DNA of 64,000 bases from Anaerolineales bacterium (GTDB taxonomy: Bacteria > Chloroflexota > Anaerolineae > Anaerolineales > E44-bin32). The notes beneath the pieces are model-generated. The model ran no database searches. It had not been told where the DNA came from and saw nothing but the letters and a program-made list of their open reading frames with translations. Positions 10,901-22,027 of the stretch are shown one piece after another. Location of the stretch: assembly GCA_016927115.1 (NCBI GenBank), contig JAFGNH010000137.1:1-64000 (forward strand). The letters run 5' to 3'. How positions within the stretch are numbered: the stretch's first letter is position 1; each line of letters opens with the position of its first letter. A program made the position numbers and the translations under genes.

Positions 10901-11500
10901 CTATTCTTCGGCTTCAGCTTCAGGTTCTTCTTCTGCTTTTTCTTCCGCTGCCGGTTCTACCTCAGGAGCAGGTTTTTCTTCTGCTTTTTCTTCCGCTGCC
11001 GGTTCTTCCTCAGGAGCAGGTTTTTCTTCTGCTTTTTCTTCCGCTGCCGGTTCTTCCTTGGGGGCGGGTTTTTCCTTTGGCGCCGGTTCTTCCTTAGGAG
11101 CGGGTTCTTCTTTTTGAGCGGGTTCGCTCTTCGCTTTCTGAGTGTGCCGTTTTTCAATCAGATCATCACGGCGGGTGCGGGGATCCACATCCACCTTGCT
11201 CTGCTCGGCTTCTTCAAGAAGCTTCTGGCGGTCTTCGCCCTGTTTCAGGCGAAGCCAGCGATCCCAGCTGCCGTGTGACCTCAGGACCTGGAGCATCGAG
11301 TCGGATGGCTGTGCGCCATTGCCGAGCCATGTAAACAGCCGGTCCTCATCTACAACAATGGTTGCCGGCTCAGTGCGTGGATTGTAGTGTCCGATAATTT
11401 CCAGAAAGCGTCCATCACGCGGGCTTTCCTTTTCAGCTACTACAATGCGATAACTTGGCTGGTTTTTTGCGCCAACCCGTCGCAGTCGAATTCGTACCAT
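10901..11500 (-). CDS. rpsP: 30S ribosomal protein S16 with long acidic C-terminal tail
   Basis: Residues 1-80 are a standard S16 (MVRIRLRRVGAKNQPSYRIV, GRFLEIIGHYNPR, DRLFTWLGNGAQPS). The family is normally 80-100 residues; this one has 199. The extra 110 residues are low-complexity Ala/Glu/Pro/Lys built from 16-residue units such as EEKPAPEEEPAAEEKA. The tail is encoded by a 48-bp tandem repeat (see repeat entry). It lies downstream of ffh and upstream of the KH gene and rimM. The tail is in frame with the core and ends with a normal stop, so it is not a frameshift product. Confidence 0.95.
   Translation of the reverse strand: MVRIRLRRVGAKNQPSYRIVVAEKESPRDGRFLEIIGHYNPRTEPATIVVDEDRLFTWLGNGAQPSDSMLQVLRSHGSWDRWLRLKQGEDRQKLLEEAEQSKVDVDPRTRRDDLIEKRHTQKAKSEPAQKEEPAPKEEPAPKEKPAPKEEPAAEEKAEEKPAPEEEPAAEEKAEEKPAPEVEPAAEEKAEEEPEAEAEE
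10931..11074 (-). repeat. 48-bp tandem repeat inside rpsP
   Basis: Three consecutive 48-bp units start at 10931, 10979 and 11027; the first two are nearly identical and the third diverges at its end. Further degenerate units run to about 11115. The unit length is a multiple of three, so each copy adds 16 residues to the S16 tail and copy-number change would preserve the frame. Confidence 0.85.
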
Positions 11501-13062: not shown

Positions 13063-15720
13063 TCAAGGGGATGCAAATGCCGGAAGATCGAGAAGCTGAT
13101 CAGCTGATACAGCTGCTTCGGCCGGCAGTGTGTTTTCAAGGACAAGGGTAAAAACAGCTGGCCCCTCATACTGTATGAGGCAGGTAACCCATGAGAGCGA
13201 TTCGTAGTCTGTACCGGTAAAAGCCTGACCGGTGAAGCAGGGGATATGGCCTGTGCCTGGATTGAATCCGTTTTGCAGTTTAGTGACGGTGTCTGCATCG
13301 AAGATATTAACAGTTCCATCCTGCAGCTGCAGCTGCTGAAAGGAACCGTCGGGCAGATGAACCGAGTCAATCAGATGGAGAGGTGGGAGAGATCCTGTTT
13401 GCAGGGAAACCATGGCTCGGGCCATTTGCAGCGGACTGACCAGAAGATTTCCCTGGCCGGTCGATTCTTTTTCAAGCTGTTGAAGTTCGGTTGGAATAGC
13501 TGGTTCAGGAAGCTGATTTTGCTGAAGCGGCAGGGTTGAAGTTCCGGTTAATGCGAACGTAGTGAACATGGTTTTAATTGCCTCGGAACCCAACGTCCCA
13601 CCGATGGACAGCGCGGCAGCCGGGCAACCGTTCCGGGCGGCACTATAGATAGTATCAGATCCACCCTGCAGGGCGCATGTTAGTTCCATGCCGTTGATCC
13701 GGACCGGTTTTGCATAATTCATATCAGTTTGGCTGGATGCGGACCCCATCGTTTTTATCTGCCACGCAAGCAGAAGTGGCGTGAGTGAGCTGCCGGGTTG
13801 ATAGGCACCCTGAACAGCACGGTTCAGCAGTGGCGCGTCCTCACGTTGCGCAATGATCTCCCAGTCTTCCTCGAGTGTGTTGGAATCAAACGAGGGGGAG
13901 GAGACCAGTGCGAGGATAGAACCTGTTTCACTGTCCAGCACCACAGCTGCACCATGCTGATCCCGGATCTCGGCGTATATTTGTTCCTGCAGAGAGAGAT
14001 CAATCGTCAGCTTGACATCAAGGCCACCGGGAGAGGTACCGTCCAGCATATAGGACCACAGCAGCTCGCTTTCCGGGTAGCCGTATAACCCGCGCAGGTA
14101 CGGATCCAGCGCTTCTTCCAATCCGCTCTGCCCAAGCAGGTTCGAATCATAGCCGATGAGTGATGCGAAGGAGGGGTAGGGAGCATTACGTTCCAGAGAT
14201 CCCGGTTCGCCTGTGCTTGAGACCAGCACGCGGCCGGTCCGATCGAGAATTGAGCCGCGGGCCTGGAAGCGGCTCTCAACGTATCTCCGGTAGTTGTCGG
14301 CCCGGGAAAGAAGGGAAGGGCCTTGCAGGACACTCCACCAGCAGGTAAACAGGCTGAGCATACAGAAAGCAGCCATGAATCCCAGCTGTACAATCGTGAA
14401 GGATCTATCTGATCGAGGTTTGCCTTTTACATCGGATAACGAAACCAGCAGCCCAAATCCCAGGAAGCTGGTGAGGAGTGAGGATCCGCCGTAGGATACA
14501 AAAGGCAGGGTAACACCGGTGAGAGGCAGGAGGCGGACATTACCGCCCATAATCAACAGTGCCTGGAGGGCTGTAGTGATGGTGATGCCTGATGCGAGCA
14601 TTCTGGGGAATGGCTCTCTGTGTGAAAGAGCAATTTTCAACCCGCGGCTGATCAAAACCAGGTAGAGGGAAATCAGGATGAAAGTACCAAGAAAACCAAA
14701 CTCCTCTCCGATGGTTGTGTAGATATAGTCTGTGTGAGCAGCCGGGACGAAGCCTGGTGATCCGAGGCCGGGCCCTGTTCCGAATATGCCCCCGGAAGCA
14801 AAGGCGATTAAGGCTTGAACGATCTGATAAGAGTTGTTATATGGGTCCAGCCAGGGAGTCAGCCAGGCTGACATGCGTACCTGAACCACGTCATACAGCA
14901 TGGTTCCAAGCAGGGCTGCCAGAACGAGGACAACACCGGCCGCAATAAAAATCTGCCAGCGCCGGGTAGCCAGATAGAGCATCAGAGTCAGTACACCAGC
15001 AAAGAGGAATGCTGTACCAAGATCGCGCTGCAGGATCAGCAGAGTGATGGATAACCCATAAATCAGGATGATTGGTGTGATTGAACCTGAATTCTTAATT
15101 GACGGCATCGATAAGAAATCAAGCCTTTTGGTGTAGAAGGCCGCCAGATAGATCACCAGAACAAGTCTGAGTGGTTCGGAAGGCTGCACATAGACGCCAA
15201 AAAAGTTAAACCAGAGGTTTGGTGCTGCACCGGAAGGGTTGGTGCCAAACAACAACGTAAGACCGGTCAGGAACAGTCCTGCGCTGAGCCAGACAAGTCT
15301 GAATTCCTGGAGGCGGTGAATAGAAGAAGCAAATCTGATCAGCAATCCTGCAGCTGCCGCAGCCACAATCAGCCAGATTGCTTGCCGGATACCGGCGGAG
15401 GGAGTAAGGCGCCAGATCTCTAGCAGCCCCCAACCACTGAGCAGCATGATGATCGGCAGAAGCAGCGGATCGTGGCGAGGCAGGCGCCGTTTTATCCATA
15501 GATGCAGACTTGCAGCTGTTATCCCCCATATGAACAGTGGAAAGAGGAAAACAGGTTTCAGACCAGTCAGCCAGTTTCCTGAACGTACTGCAGGTGCCAG
15601 CATGAGTGCAAGCGATGTACACAAGAGTGCCAGGAAGCTCACGATCAGCAGGCGTCGTTCAGGTCCTGAATGGTTCTTCTGGTGGAGGATGACGGAATCG
15701 TCCTCGATCAGGTCAGTCAA
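13063..15720 (-). CDS. FtsW/RodA glycan polymerase fused to a degenerate PBP transpeptidase domain
   Basis: One 885-residue protein. Residues 1-475 are a SEDS peptidoglycan polymerase with about ten membrane helices and intact family motifs: FGVYVQPSEPLRLVLVIY, LQRDLGTAF, HTDYIYTTIGEEFGFLG (from H329) and PFVSYGGSSLL. Residues 480-885 resemble a class B PBP (SRFQARGSILDRTGRVL; LTIDLSLQEQIYAEI; AAVVLDSETGSILALVSSPSFD). The catalytic motifs are lost: PGS-SLT at 642-647 has Thr where SxxK needs Lys, the SxN region reads RNGCPAA, and KTG reads FTG (829-831). The PBP half is therefore probably a non-catalytic activator or scaffold for the polymerase. It lies in one operon between the MTA/MTI phosphorylase gene (32-nt gap) and ffh. 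Confidence 0.9.
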   Translation of the reverse strand: MTDLIEDDSVILHQKNHSGPERRLLIVSFLALLCTSLALMLAPAVRSGNWLTGLKPVFLFPLFIWGITAASLHLWIKRRLPRHDPLLLPIIMLLSGWGLLEIWRLTPSAGIRQAIWLIVAAAAAGLLIRFASSIHRLQEFRLVWLSAGLFLTGLTLLFGTNPSGAAPNLWFNFFGVYVQPSEPLRLVLVIYLAAFYTKRLDFLSMPSIKNSGSITPIILIYGLSITLLILQRDLGTAFLFAGVLTLMLYLATRRWQIFIAAGVVLVLAALLGTMLYDVVQVRMSAWLTPWLDPYNNSYQIVQALIAFASGGIFGTGPGLGSPGFVPAAHTDYIYTTIGEEFGFLGTFILISLYLVLISRGLKIALSHREPFPRMLASGITITTALQALLIMGGNVRLLPLTGVTLPFVSYGGSSLLTSFLGFGLLVSLSDVKGKPRSDRSFTIVQLGFMAAFCMLSLFTCWWSVLQGPSLLSRADNYRRYVESRFQARGSILDRTGRVLVSSTGEPGSLERNAPYPSFASLIGYDSNLLGQSGLEEALDPYLRGLYGYPESELLWSYMLDGTSPGGLDVKLTIDLSLQEQIYAEIRDQHGAAVVLDSETGSILALVSSPSFDSNTLEEDWEIIAQREDAPLLNRAVQGAYQPGSSLTPLLLAWQIKTMGSASSQTDMNYAKPVRINGMELTCALQGGSDTIYSAARNGCPAAALSIGGTLGSEAIKTMFTTFALTGTSTLPLQQNQLPEPAIPTELQQLEKESTGQGNLLVSPLQMARAMVSLQTGSLPPLHLIDSVHLPDGSFQQLQLQDGTVNIFDADTVTKLQNGFNPGTGHIPCFTGQAFTGTDYESLSWVTCLIQYEGPAVFTLVLENTLPAEAAVSADQLLDLPAFASP

Positions 15721-15752: not shown

Positions 15753-16622
15753 TCAGTTTTTCTGTAGGACACGATCGAGCAGCGGTGCAAACCGCTCTCG
15801 AGTTTCAACGGAAATTGATGCCAGATCTGTCATGAAAGCATCATCCAGGGCACAGCCGCAGTGACAGGATGTTCCTTCCGGCAGATTTGCACAAACACGA
15901 TTGATCACGGATACAATTGCGCTGCTGGTCGCATGGACACTGGAAAGTACTTTTGATGCAGAAACGGGTTCTTCATTCAGGTGCCATACATCGTAATTAG
16001 TAACGTAAGCCAGAACTGAATAGCACATTTCCGCTTCGCGGGCGAGGAAGGCTTCTGGGGCAACTGTCATACCTATAACCGACATTCCCCAGGCACGATA
16101 CGTGTTTGATTCTGCTCGTGTTGAAAAACGGCTGCCTTCAATAGTAATATATGTGCCGGTTCGGTGAGGTGGAAAACCTGCTTCCTCGGCACTCTGTACC
16201 AGTGTTTCCGACAGATCCTTGCAGAACGGATCGGCAACATTAACATGGGTAACAATCCCGTTTCCGAAGAATGTTTTTTCACGGCTGTTTGTATAGTCGA
16301 ACAGCTGGTCGGGCACAACCAGGTCACCTAATTTATAGTCGTCACGAAGGGAACCACAGGCAGTGACTGCAATAATTCGCTTTACACCAAGACTCTTGAG
16401 CGCGTAGATATTAGCCCGGTAGTTGATTTCATTGGGTGTAAGCGTATGGCCCTTCCCATGCCTGTTGAGAAAAGCGATGGATGTGTCTCTAAAGGAGCCG
16501 GTCATAATTGGCCCACTGGGTTTGCCGAAAGGTGTATCCATTTCGATACACTTACCCTGAAGTATTCCCTTGAGCTCTGGCAACCCGGATCCGGAAAGAA
16601 TGCCCAGTTGTATCTCTGACAT
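15753..16622 (-). CDS. 5'-methylthioadenosine/methylthioinosine phosphorylase (MTAP family)
   Basis: Phosphorolytic cleavage of methylthio-nucleosides to a purine and methylthioribose-1-phosphate; 289 residues. Family motifs: LGILSGSGLPEL, FLNRHGKGHTLTPNEINYRA, TACGSLRDDYKLGDLVVPD, ITIEGSRFSTRAES and MTVAPEAFLAREAEMCY. The purine-contacting segment reads TNYDVWHLNEEPVS; human MTAP has TDYDCW there, so the Asp that recognises the adenine amino group is an Asn. Asn suits a 6-oxopurine, as in methylthioinosine phosphorylases and PNPs. This matches the MtaD-type deaminase encoded 7 kb away, which would make methylthioinosine. Substrate preference is an inference. A GGAGG SD precedes the ATG. Confidence 0.88.
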   Translation of the reverse strand: MSEIQLGILSGSGLPELKGILQGKCIEMDTPFGKPSGPIMTGSFRDTSIAFLNRHGKGHTLTPNEINYRANIYALKSLGVKRIIAVTACGSLRDDYKLGDLVVPDQLFDYTNSREKTFFGNGIVTHVNVADPFCKDLSETLVQSAEEAGFPPHRTGTYITIEGSRFSTRAESNTYRAWGMSVIGMTVAPEAFLAREAEMCYSVLAYVTNYDVWHLNEEPVSASKVLSSVHATSSAIVSVINRVCANLPEGTSCHCGCALDDAFMTDLASISVETRERFAPLLDRVLQKN

Positions 16623-16741: not shown

Positions 16742-17806
16742 ATGAGTGAGACTGCCCGTACGCCGGAACAGGAATTGGCTTCACAGTTGCAAAGCCTTGA
16801 GAGCACCTATCAATCACTTCAATCGGATATCATGCTTGTCTCTGTAAAGGATAGTATCGAAGATATGCAGACGAAAGCGATACACCTTTCCCAATCTGTA
16901 AAATCGATTCGTGATAAGGGGTATGTCTTTGAAAATGACTTGGAAAAGCGATGTAACAGTCTTCGTAAACAGTGGATCAGCCTGAAACCCTCCATTCAAC
17001 GCGAATTAACCCAGCAGGTCAATACACTGGCGGCCGATGTAAAAAGGCTGGATGCCCAGATGCTGCGGACACGCTCAAGCAGCCGCAATACACAGCTGGG
17101 TCTTAAGCTGGTAAAGGAAACAGAGGCTGCCGTAAAAGGGTTGGAAGGCAAAGCCGAAGCGGCAAGTTCTTCGGTACGGGGTATGTATGATAGCCTTGAG
17201 AATCAGATCTCGAAACTCGAATCCCATCTTAACCAGATTGATTGGGGATTGAATGAAGCCGCTGAATCGAGTTTTGATTGGCTGGCGCTGGAAGGGCTTG
17301 TCCGCGCGGTCAAGGCTGAATGGGTGCGAGGTAAGAAAGACAAGGTTGAAGGTGTCCTGTATTTAACGGATCAGCGACTGATGTATGAACGCAAGGAAGA
17401 AGTGGCTACCAAGAAGGTTCTCTTTATCGCCACTGAGAAAGAACTTGTTCAACAGGCTGAGCTTGAGATCGCGGTTAAGCAGGTGGATAAGGCATCGGCG
17501 AAAAAGGAAGGTTTTATGAAACATGAGGATCACCTGTATCTTGATCTGGCAGCAGGTGCTCCAACAGATGCCGTTCACTTTCATATCGATGGCCAGGATT
17601 GTGAAGAATGGGCGCATCTCATTCGTCGCGCATCCGAGGGAGAACTTGATTGCCAGCGAATCACACCGATTTCAGATGAGGAGGTCGATCGACTGCGTAA
17701 CGCGCCGACAAAATGTCCCAGCTGTGGCGCAACGATCACAGCCCCTATCCTTCGGGGCCAGATAGAATTTTCCTGTGACTACTGTGGGGCGGTTTCCCGC
17801 TTCTGA
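16742..17806 (+). CDS. Coiled-coil, PH/GRAM-like, zinc-ribbon protein of unknown function
   Basis: Predicted soluble protein of 354 residues; no signal or membrane helix. Residues 1-190 are strongly helical with heptad-like spacing (QLQSLESTYQSLQSDIM; ISKLESHLNQIDWGL). Residues 200-305 look like a bacterial PH/GRAM domain: KDKVEGVLYLTDQRLMYERK, then KVLFIA and a C-terminal helix CEEWAHLIRRA. Residues 325-352 form a zinc ribbon, CPSCG and CDYCG. A good SD (AAAGGAG) precedes the ATG. It stands alone, divergent from the phosphorylase operon, with its own terminator. I do not recognise a named family; a membrane- or RNA-associated adaptor is one possibility. Confidence 0.8.
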   Translation: MSETARTPEQELASQLQSLESTYQSLQSDIMLVSVKDSIEDMQTKAIHLSQSVKSIRDKGYVFENDLEKRCNSLRKQWISLKPSIQRELTQQVNTLAADVKRLDAQMLRTRSSSRNTQLGLKLVKETEAAVKGLEGKAEAASSSVRGMYDSLENQISKLESHLNQIDWGLNEAAESSFDWLALEGLVRAVKAEWVRGKKDKVEGVLYLTDQRLMYERKEEVATKKVLFIATEKELVQQAELEIAVKQVDKASAKKEGFMKHEDHLYLDLAAGAPTDAVHFHIDGQDCEEWAHLIRRASEGELDCQRITPISDEEVDRLRNAPTKCPSCGATITAPILRGQIEFSCDYCGAVSRF

Positions 17807-19711: not shown

Positions 19712-20179
19712 TCAGTCAGCCGGGAGAGTGTTCTCTGGCTGTGTGGGGGGGTCGATACGTGCAGTTAGTACAACCATTACGCTGCCGAACCGGATTCTGT
19801 CACCGTAGGCCAGCGGCATCGGTTCTTCGACCGGGATGTCATTAATATAGGTGCCATTGCGGGAGCCCAGGTCCTCCAGCAGCCATTGGGTATTGGCGTA
19901 GGTTAGTCGAGCATGGACAGCGGAGATGGTGGGCTCATTGATCTGAATGGTGCAGGTCTGCGCTCTGCCAATCAGATTTGTTTCAGCAAGCTGGAACACC
20001 TGCCCGACTTCAGGCCCTTCAGCAAGAAAGAAGTGTGCTGGTGGAACAAGCAGGACTTCCTCCTGATGTGCCATATCCCGGCGCAGCAGGGAAATTATGT
20101 ATCCCAGGAAAGCAAACAGAAGAGAGACGATCAGAATACGCAAAACAAGGACGATAATCGAAGGCTCCATGGAGTTCAA
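19712..20179 (-). CDS. Membrane-anchored FHA-domain protein (FhaB-like)
   Basis: 155 residues: one N-terminal membrane helix (about 8-30, VLRILIVSLLFAFLGYIISLL region) followed by a cytoplasmic FHA domain that binds phosphothreonine. FHA landmarks are NLIGRAQTCTIQINEP, SAVHARL and LGSRNGTYINDIPV. Layout matches actinobacterial FhaB, which links Ser/Thr kinase signalling to cell-wall growth. It is the third gene of an FHA operon and overlaps the stop of the preceding gene by 4 bp. No kinase gene is in the window. Confidence 0.88.
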   Translation of the reverse strand: MNSMEPSIIVLVLRILIVSLLFAFLGYIISLLRRDMAHQEEVLLVPPAHFFLAEGPEVGQVFQLAETNLIGRAQTCTIQINEPTISAVHARLTYANTQWLLEDLGSRNGTYINDIPVEEPMPLAYGDRIRFGSVMVVLTARIDPPTQPENTLPAD

Positions 20180-20949
20180 TCTATCCTTTCAATACCGGCT
20201 TCGGGTGTGGATCTTCTGAACGCTGAAGTTTCATCGGAGTAGCTGGGATCTTCCTCAAAATAGATCAGTCTCTGACCGCCAATCGTGATCACATCACCAG
20301 AATGAAGAATTGCCTGGTGGATCTGGTTTCCGTTAATAAAGGTTCCTGTCGTGGAACCCAGATCAATCACGAGGAAATGATGGTCCCGGGCGCGGATCTG
20401 TGCATGGGTTCTGGAGACACTGCGCTCGTTTAAAACAATCTGATTATCCCGCCTGCGGCCGATATTCAGGATCGGCTTGTTTACAGGTATGTGGGTATCA
20501 TTGAGGATCAGATATGCTCCCTCCGGGAAGGAGAGTGTTGGAGGGGATGAAGCGAGTGAATGAGTGGTGTCCAGGATATGGCTGTGGCTGGCAGCAATGA
20601 CAATGGTATCTCCGCTCAGGGTTGGGTCGGCTTCAAACAGAATGACTATATTATCAGGTGCATAATAATTCCGTCGCTGAGCGTTCTCAAGGACCCAGTC
20701 GGAAAGACTGGATCGAATCTCCTCTTCATGTACAGAAAACAAGGTGAATGTATCCGGAGAAAGGAACAGATTGTAGTGATCCGGTATGGATGGCGGCTGA
20801 TCCTTGCCTTCATGCAGGTTTGCTTCAAGAGCGTCCAGAATCGAATCGGCAAGCGCGGCTGGTTTTATCCTTGAATCAAGCAGGTTTGATATTGGATCTT
20901 CCAGGATCTGTTCCAGCTTCTTTTCGAAGTTCTTTAATATTTCCTGCAT
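20176..20949 (-). CDS. DUF3662/FHA-domain protein (FhaA-like), copy 2
   Basis: 257 residues. The first ~125 residues (MQEILKNFEKKLEQILEDPI; PDHYNLFLSPDTFTLFS) match the DUF3662 domain of FhaA proteins; the C-terminal FHA domain has ILNIGRRRDNQIVLNERSVS, RTHAQI and LGSTTGTFINGNQI. It is the middle gene of three FHA genes on this strand. A 136-nt gap separates it from the upstream copy, so it may also have its own promoter. Function by analogy is phosphothreonine-dependent control of envelope assembly. Confidence 0.87.
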   Translation of the reverse strand: MQEILKNFEKKLEQILEDPISNLLDSRIKPAALADSILDALEANLHEGKDQPPSIPDHYNLFLSPDTFTLFSVHEEEIRSSLSDWVLENAQRRNYYAPDNIVILFEADPTLSGDTIVIAASHSHILDTTHSLASSPPTLSFPEGAYLILNDTHIPVNKPILNIGRRRDNQIVLNERSVSRTHAQIRARDHHFLVIDLGSTTGTFINGNQIHQAILHSGDVITIGGQRLIYFEEDPSYSDETSAFRRSTPEAGIERID

Positions 20950-21085: not shown

Positions 21086-22027
21086 TCAATCAGCCCTGTT
21101 TGGTTCGGAGGCGTCCGTTGGTTTGGCGTCGTCAGCCTCTTTTATCGAGGTGGGATGTGTAATCTGATTATTAGCATGGAAACCATCAAGCTCCATGGGG
21201 CGTGTTCTATCCATCAGTCTGTCCGCTGCACTGCGAGCTGCAGGGGTATCAAGTGCTGTTTTCTCCCTTTCAGCGGCTTTGTGAGGAGAAGGCTGCAGAT
21301 CCGGTGCGCCGCTGCCTTCTCCATAAATCAGCTGAGAGTCAGCGATCCTGACCAGATCACCAGGATGAAGTCGGTGCCGATTTATTTGCCGGTTGTTGAC
21401 ATAGGTTCCTGCAGTTGAACCACAATCAATAATGTAGTAATGGCCGTCATTGAGTTCAAGACGGGCATGACGTCTCGAAACATGAAGGTCTTCCAGAATG
21501 AGATGGTTGTCCAGCCTTCGGCCGATGGTAAAAATCTCTCTATCCAGGACAAATTGGTGTTTGCCATCCACAATCAGGAATGCGTTTTCTGGCGGCTGAC
21601 GATGATCGACCATGTGCACAGGCGCGTCACCGGGCATGAATTGTAGTGGATTACTGCTGTGCCAGCCAATGACGCGCTGCTCCCAGCGGTCGAGCGTGGG
21701 ATCAGTTGCCACGGTGATATGTGGCTCTCGAGCCAGAGTAAAACCGTTTTTTTCAAGAGCTGTCTGAAGCTGCTTTGAGAGGATGGTCTGTGTATGGGAG
21801 ACATCAGGAATCAGCAGCTGGATATCATCCGGATGGATGCTGAGTGTATACTGGTCAGGTGCGAAAAACTGCTGAGGGTCTTTTCTTTTCAGTGTTGTAG
21901 CTGAGATCTCGTTCACGAGTTGGTCAGCCAGAGACCGCGCGGAAAACAACGAACCCTCCGTTTTGGCGAAGGTTTCTAGAATAAGTGTTTCGAGATCGTT
22001 TTCCAGCCGCGAATTTGGATCTTCCAT
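21086..22027 (-). CDS. DUF3662/FHA-domain protein (FhaA-like), copy 1
   Basis: 313 residues, same architecture as its downstream neighbour: N-terminal DUF3662-like domain (QFFAPDQYTLSIHPDDIQLL), then FHA with IFTIGRRLDNHLILEDL, VSRRHARL and CGSTAGTYVNNRQI. A disordered charged tail of about 55 residues follows. The two proteins clearly arose by duplication; this one has a Cys in place of the usual Leu/Asp just before GSTAGT. It diverges from the archease gene across an 80-nt intergenic region. Confidence 0.87.
   Translation of the reverse strand: MEDPNSRLENDLETLILETFAKTEGSLFSARSLADQLVNEISATTLKRKDPQQFFAPDQYTLSIHPDDIQLLIPDVSHTQTILSKQLQTALEKNGFTLAREPHITVATDPTLDRWEQRVIGWHSSNPLQFMPGDAPVHMVDHRQPPENAFLIVDGKHQFVLDREIFTIGRRLDNHLILEDLHVSRRHARLELNDGHYYIIDCGSTAGTYVNNRQINRHRLHPGDLVRIADSQLIYGEGSGAPDLQPSPHKAAEREKTALDTPAARSAADRLMDRTRPMELDGFHANNQITHPTSIKEADDAKPTDASEPNRAD

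Follow-up and report, generated by a model that had tools for sequence, protein, structure and literature searches.

A probable third SEDS synthase in Anaerolineales with a putative pseudo-transpeptidase as its fused partner

Introduction

The genome of an Anaerolineales bacterium encodes a protein in which a SEDS polymerase is joined to a class B penicillin-binding protein (PBP) that has lost all three of its active-site motifs. The protein is probably a third SEDS synthase, one of the FhaA/RodA/PbpA type, whose PBP is kept as a pseudo-transpeptidase with an activator or scaffold role, with other enzymes cross-linking the new strands in trans. Engineered mutants have so far been the basis for arguing over whether the PBP is required by a SEDS polymerase for catalysis or just for switching, and evolution appears to have run this PBP-activation experiment across a bacterial order. 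Our literature search was confined to open-licence PMC papers, and its failure to find a natural catalytically dead SEDS partner there is for that reason weak evidence of novelty.

The gene lies in a stretch of 64,000 nucleotides, hereafter called the window. The original prediction, made from this DNA alone, described the protein as FtsW fused to a dead PBP domain. Here, we examine this description against relatives from the order, class, and phylum.

Results

One polypeptide with an intact polymerase half

The fusion gene (13063..15720, minus strand, as are all features marked (-) below) is a single open reading frame of 885 residues with a TTG start. It carries both Pfam domains, PF01098 at residues 110–430 (E 1e-71, 241.9 bits against a cut-off of 26.4) and PF00905 at residues 590–819 (E 4e-18, 65.9 bits against a cut-off of 22.1), with weak pedestal/dimerisation matches between them, and polymerase and partner are thus one protein, as predicted. 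In the PDB, the solved chains closest to the SEDS part are RodA and FtsW, and those closest to the PBP part are class B PBPs. Structure prediction from four sequences (window, L039, L040, and L188) gave an unusable model (pLDDT 41, pTM 0.38).

The SEDS domain spans residues about 20–436 (14413..15663 (-)) and, judged by its residues, is an intact polymerase. Trp170, Asp331, Tyr410, and Gly411, which are invariant in alignment A1, are the equivalents of FtsW Trp138, RodA Asp262/FtsW Asp297, Tyr379, and Gly380, and mutagenesis in E. coli shows the corresponding residues to be essential (PMC10449877, PMC8765783). The residue at Asp331 (14728..14730 (-)) is aspartate in 76/76 dead and 39/39 active relatives, Gly411 is likewise invariant in them, and the QPSE, Glu-Glu, and Ser-Tyr-Gly-Gly stretches of the domain are invariant or nearly so, which agrees with the earlier claim that the polymerase motifs are intact.

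A hydrophobic stretch, FTIVQLGFMAAFCMLSLFTCWW, forms the PBP transmembrane helix that links the SEDS domain to the pedestal (residues about 440–465, 14326..14403 (-)), and its Trp462 has a conservation of 0.94. The pedestal with its RGxIxDRxG motif follows (residues about 466–588, 13957..14325 (-)), and then the pseudo-transpeptidase domain (residues 589–885, 13066..13956 (-)).

Loss of the transpeptidase motifs

At the aligned position of SxxK, residues 644–647 (13780..13791 (-)) read SSLT, so that the nucleophile Ser644 is still there and the lysine is gone, and at the position of KTG, residues 829–831 (13228..13236 (-)) read FTG; both are as originally read. For SxN, which had been read as RNGC, the loss stands, but the aligned position is the adjoining GCP at residues 698–700 (13621..13629 (-)). 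All three motifs are therefore lost, and this loss is general among relatives rather than special to the window copy. The prediction had named two grounds on which it should be abandoned, an intact SxxK elsewhere in the domain and sequencing errors at the motifs. A search of the window transpeptidase domain found no intact SxxK, SxN, or KTG elsewhere, and sequencing error is excluded because the motifs are missing in 114 genomes. The check that had been proposed, aligning the protein to class B PBPs and to further fusions, left the dead-PBP reading standing: all 114 dead copies counted, the window protein included, lack the SxxK, SxN, and KTG of an active class B PBP. The PBP half is predicted not to bind penicillin.

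In G394, a pattern match to PGSxxK was discarded: the matched letters, PGSDIK, lie at position 140 of the extracted segment and not in the active site.

Distribution and origin of the dead state

We first sought the protein in 61 genomes of the genus, family, and order, and then ran a 16-row profile on sets drawn from the class (150 genomes), the phylum (151), and the order (151); "active" denotes motifs intact by sequence, not measured activity. The PBP part was readable and alignable in 126 genomes of this main survey, comprising 59 fused dead, 21 split dead, 44 split active, and one fused active copy, as well as one doubtful metagenome-assembled genome (MAG), G065. A second copy in G413 was masked and left out of these calls. 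The three motifs travel together, being all present or all absent in every genome read except G065 (L146 628-1767), which keeps KTG and has lost SxxK. We do not take this copy as an intermediate: it is otherwise an active-type PBP whose mid-domain is replaced by a Glu/Leu-rich low-complexity stretch, reflecting either an assembly fault or a recent event.

In the window's order, 88/88 readable copies lack all three motifs, including 34 copies found beyond the main survey, all of them dead. Other families of the class hold 25 dead and 13 active copies (G065 left out), and in other classes of the phylum, where the PBP almost invariably has a gene of its own, the motifs are intact in 32/33 copies and lost in one. 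Throughout the phylum, the same SEDS gene is accompanied by a PbpA-type class B PBP. In a tree of 74 rows built from the SEDS domain only, the dead rows without G217 form one side of a branch with a support of 96, a pattern that points to one ancient main loss of the motifs and a separate loss in G217. The contig search for relatives gave two named ones, and one among viral contigs; L039, a named relative inside the dead clade, is a Chloroflexi MAG, which supports the phylum that the original prediction had assumed.

Fusion was considered as the cause of inactivation and rejected, because 22 dead PBPs are separate genes (compared with 92 fused dead copies, the window copy included) and because one PBP retains its motifs despite being fused. 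This protein, from G334 in another class (L114 1477-4377), is the only natural fusion with three intact motifs in the main survey and offers an active-type comparator. A distant 925-residue SEDS–PBP fusion with an intact SxxK (L057 958-3732) occurs in bin G059 alongside a split dead pair, and may be contamination because its contig is short. In a few relatives, the PBP is reduced further: the protein ends soon after the PBP helix in G388, only the SEDS domain and the last hydrophobic helix are retained in G037 and G050, and G348 and G362 end without that helix, with nothing of the PBP left.

Selection on the pseudo-transpeptidase domain

Among the residues that are invariant in active copies but that dead copies have lost are S644, K647, S698, N700, K829, and most other KTG positions. 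From active to dead copies, mean conservation of the transpeptidase region falls from 0.555 to 0.393, whereas that of the pedestal is 0.538 in dead and 0.520 in active copies. Position 644 in dead copies is occupied by M, A, T, S, L, G, P, D, N, and others, position 647 is likewise variable, and the SxN region is missing in 27/80. Between close pairs, dN/dS of the dead domain is 0.12–0.50 (11/12 pairs, the twelfth being saturated), that of the helix and pedestal 0.09–0.23, and that of the SEDS domain 0.06–0.19. The median dN of the transpeptidase domain relative to the pedestal is about 1.3 in dead and about 0.9 in active copies. This range and the faster relative rate indicate that purifying selection still acts on the dead domain, though in relaxed form. 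Of the 53 dead copies that retain the loop, 50 have both Cys682 and Cys699, a pair that also occurs in 12/45 active PBPs, which suggests a disulfide.

A probable third synthase of the PbpA/FhaA type

The label FtsW does not hold. The genome carries two canonical SEDS/PBP pairs with intact PBP motifs: a SEDS gene together with a class B PBP gene on contig C88, presumably FtsW/FtsI, as well as the cluster MreB-MreC-MreD-PBP2-MinC-MinD-RodA on contig C190. Given these two pairs, the window protein is assigned from sequence as a third SEDS synthase, of the PbpA/FhaA type, and not the cell's only FtsW. The profile of the dead PBP half has as its best PDB match M. tuberculosis PbpA (positions 33–436 of 446, E 3e-57). 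Against PBP_dimer_2 (PF21922, cut-off 27), the window protein scores 20.8 bits and the active orthologue in L118 35.5 bits.

Upstream lies a purine nucleoside phosphorylase family gene (PNP_UDP_1, 15753..16622 (-)), the usual upstream neighbor in the order, and farther upstream, genes for an FhaB-like FHA-domain protein (19712..20179 (-)) and, by domain matches (FhaA_N and FHA), two FhaA-like proteins (20176..20949 (-) and 21086..22027 (-)). Such genes are also found near the SEDS gene in relatives, where the FhaB-like gene directly adjoins the upstream neighbor of the fusion gene. In the window, GlnRS and a 354-residue protein with a zinc-ribbon-like CxxC...CxxC end and no Pfam family (16742-17806) separate the FHA genes from the fusion, an arrangement not seen there in relatives. 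The window also encodes, at 10901-11500, ribosomal protein S16 (rpsP) with a long, repeat-built, low-complexity Pro/Ala/Lys/Glu tail; the rpsP frames of relatives are likewise long, at about 224–398 residues.

Candidate cross-linking enzymes

In the same genome, one class B PBP is an orphan; it has a MecA_N domain, and its motifs are intact. There are also at least one class A PBP and six L,D-transpeptidases. In addition, L190 (G000 contig C84 10296-10544) gives a partial class A PBP glycosyltransferase match; it belongs to a frame of 977 residues in which the PF00905 transpeptidase was not found. PBP3 of B. subtilis is of the MecA_N type, and the MecA_N Pfam model matches in the B. subtilis control genome. 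MecA_N PBPs occur in 40/40 dead versus 17/40 active genomes. The mean number of L,D-transpeptidases per genome is 5.25 versus 1.95, and both comparisons are confounded by phylogeny. In the class outside the window's order, the difference is smaller, the figures being 13/13 dead versus 7/10 active (p 0.07) and 4.2 versus 2.1 per genome, respectively. Because of the confounding, we regard the co-occurrence as a lead, not a result.

Discussion

The explanation that we favor, and consider probable, is that, in an ancestor shared by the order and several sister families, the class B partner of a FhaA/RodA/PbpA-type synthase turned into a pseudo-transpeptidase, which was fused to the polymerase in most lineages. 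Its helix and pedestal would still switch the polymerase on allosterically, as they do for SEDS proteins in model systems (PMC6207328, PMC10257715, PMC10449877), the dead domain would be retained as a structural or docking piece, and cross-linking of the new strands would fall to transpeptidases acting in trans, the most plausible being the orphan MecA_N-type PBP and/or the L,D-transpeptidases. As the loss is common to all 88 copies read in the order, switching on the polymerase is most likely all that the partner does. The proposal that the PBP serves as activator or scaffold thus gains support as an inference from sequence: the order shows a fixed dead state, residues known to be essential in SEDS proteins do not vary, and the pedestal has been conserved where the catalytic residues have not. 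Beyond that proposal, the loss is not tied to fusion, and candidate trans-acting active transpeptidases exist in the same genome. In our analysis, activation by helix and pedestal would be the best-supported function and trans cross-linking the likeliest consequence. RodA is stimulated by the PBP2 helix alone (PMC10449877), which the helix-only and PBP-less relatives match; activation alone does not explain why the pseudo-domain is retained in most lineages and dispensed with in a few.

Three other readings were weighed against this one. The PBP half could be a decaying passenger, with only the polymerase mattering, as its raised substitution rate relative to the pedestal and its shortening or loss in some lineages would allow; we consider this unlikely, since every unsaturated pair has a dN/dS well below 1, the frames are open in 114 genomes, the pedestal keeps the level of conservation seen in active PBPs, and the paired cysteines are kept. 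We judge it very unlikely that the SEDS protein has moved from peptidoglycan to polymerising a different lipid-linked glycan, with the pseudo-PBP acting as chaperone. With two other SEDS/PBP pairs in the cell, one of them within an mreBCD-minCD cluster, a third synthase would be free to diverge, but the residues essential for Lipid II polymerisation are unchanged, orthologues with active-motif PBPs occur across the phylum, and FhaA/FhaB-like genes lie nearby, as in the actinobacterial peptidoglycan rodA-pbpA locus (PMC6554272).

Finally, the transpeptidase domain might still be catalytic through non-canonical residues, for which Ser644 in the window copy and Cys699, invariant wherever the loop is retained, could be candidates. 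This we hold to be highly improbable: both 644 and 647 are too variable in dead copies, no conserved nucleophile–base pair has replaced them, the SxN region is often gone altogether, and the pairing of Cys699 with Cys682, as in some active PBPs, fits a disulfide.

The relatives can be placed in a series that starts with the active split pair, passes through dead proteins that are first split and then fused, and ends with helix-only remnants. If the pseudo-transpeptidase reading is right, the dead fusions would be ready-made proteins for measuring activation apart from cross-linking. The polymerase is predicted to be beyond the reach of β-lactams via its partner; they should not directly inhibit the window synthase, because its PBP half is without the acylation machinery. 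Annotation by domain matches will mislabel such dead PBPs as transpeptidases. More tentatively, and with the balance of our judgment somewhat against it, the whole order may possess a synthase in which polymerisation is permanently split from its own cross-linking, with a β-lactam-blind pseudo-PBP and with MecA_N PBPs or L,D-transpeptidases (3-3 links) acting in trans.

Among known systems, one of the closest is actinobacterial RodA-PbpA (pknB-pknA-pbpA-rodA-pstP-fhaB-fhaA), whose locus includes fhaA/fhaB genes (PMC6554272): PbpA is the best and near end-to-end match, and FhaA_N/FHA genes are nearby. There, however, PbpA is separate with intact motifs, whereas the PBP here is both dead and part of a fusion, and the neighbors checked included no kinase or phosphatase gene. 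RodA-PBP2 and FtsW-FtsI similarly pair a SEDS polymerase with a PBP that has the helix, the pedestal, and the transpeptidase fold, but as separate genes with an active transpeptidase, and such pairs are also present in this genome. The engineered RodA-PBP2 fusion, reported together with a mention of natural SEDS–PBP open reading frames, is likewise a single polypeptide with SEDS first; it binds Bocillin (PMC10449877), which the window fusion, its PBP motifs lost, is predicted not to do. With respect to function, a precedent is B. subtilis PBP 2B S309A, a catalytically dead PBP that supports division provided that PBP3 gives transpeptidation (PMC5656894), a case to which C. difficile SpoVD is partly similar (PMC12713402). 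In both B. subtilis and our model, a dead class B PBP is structural and a second one supplies transpeptidation, but PBP 2B S309A is a laboratory mutant of a divisome PBP, whereas the dead state in the window is natural and fixed in its lineage.
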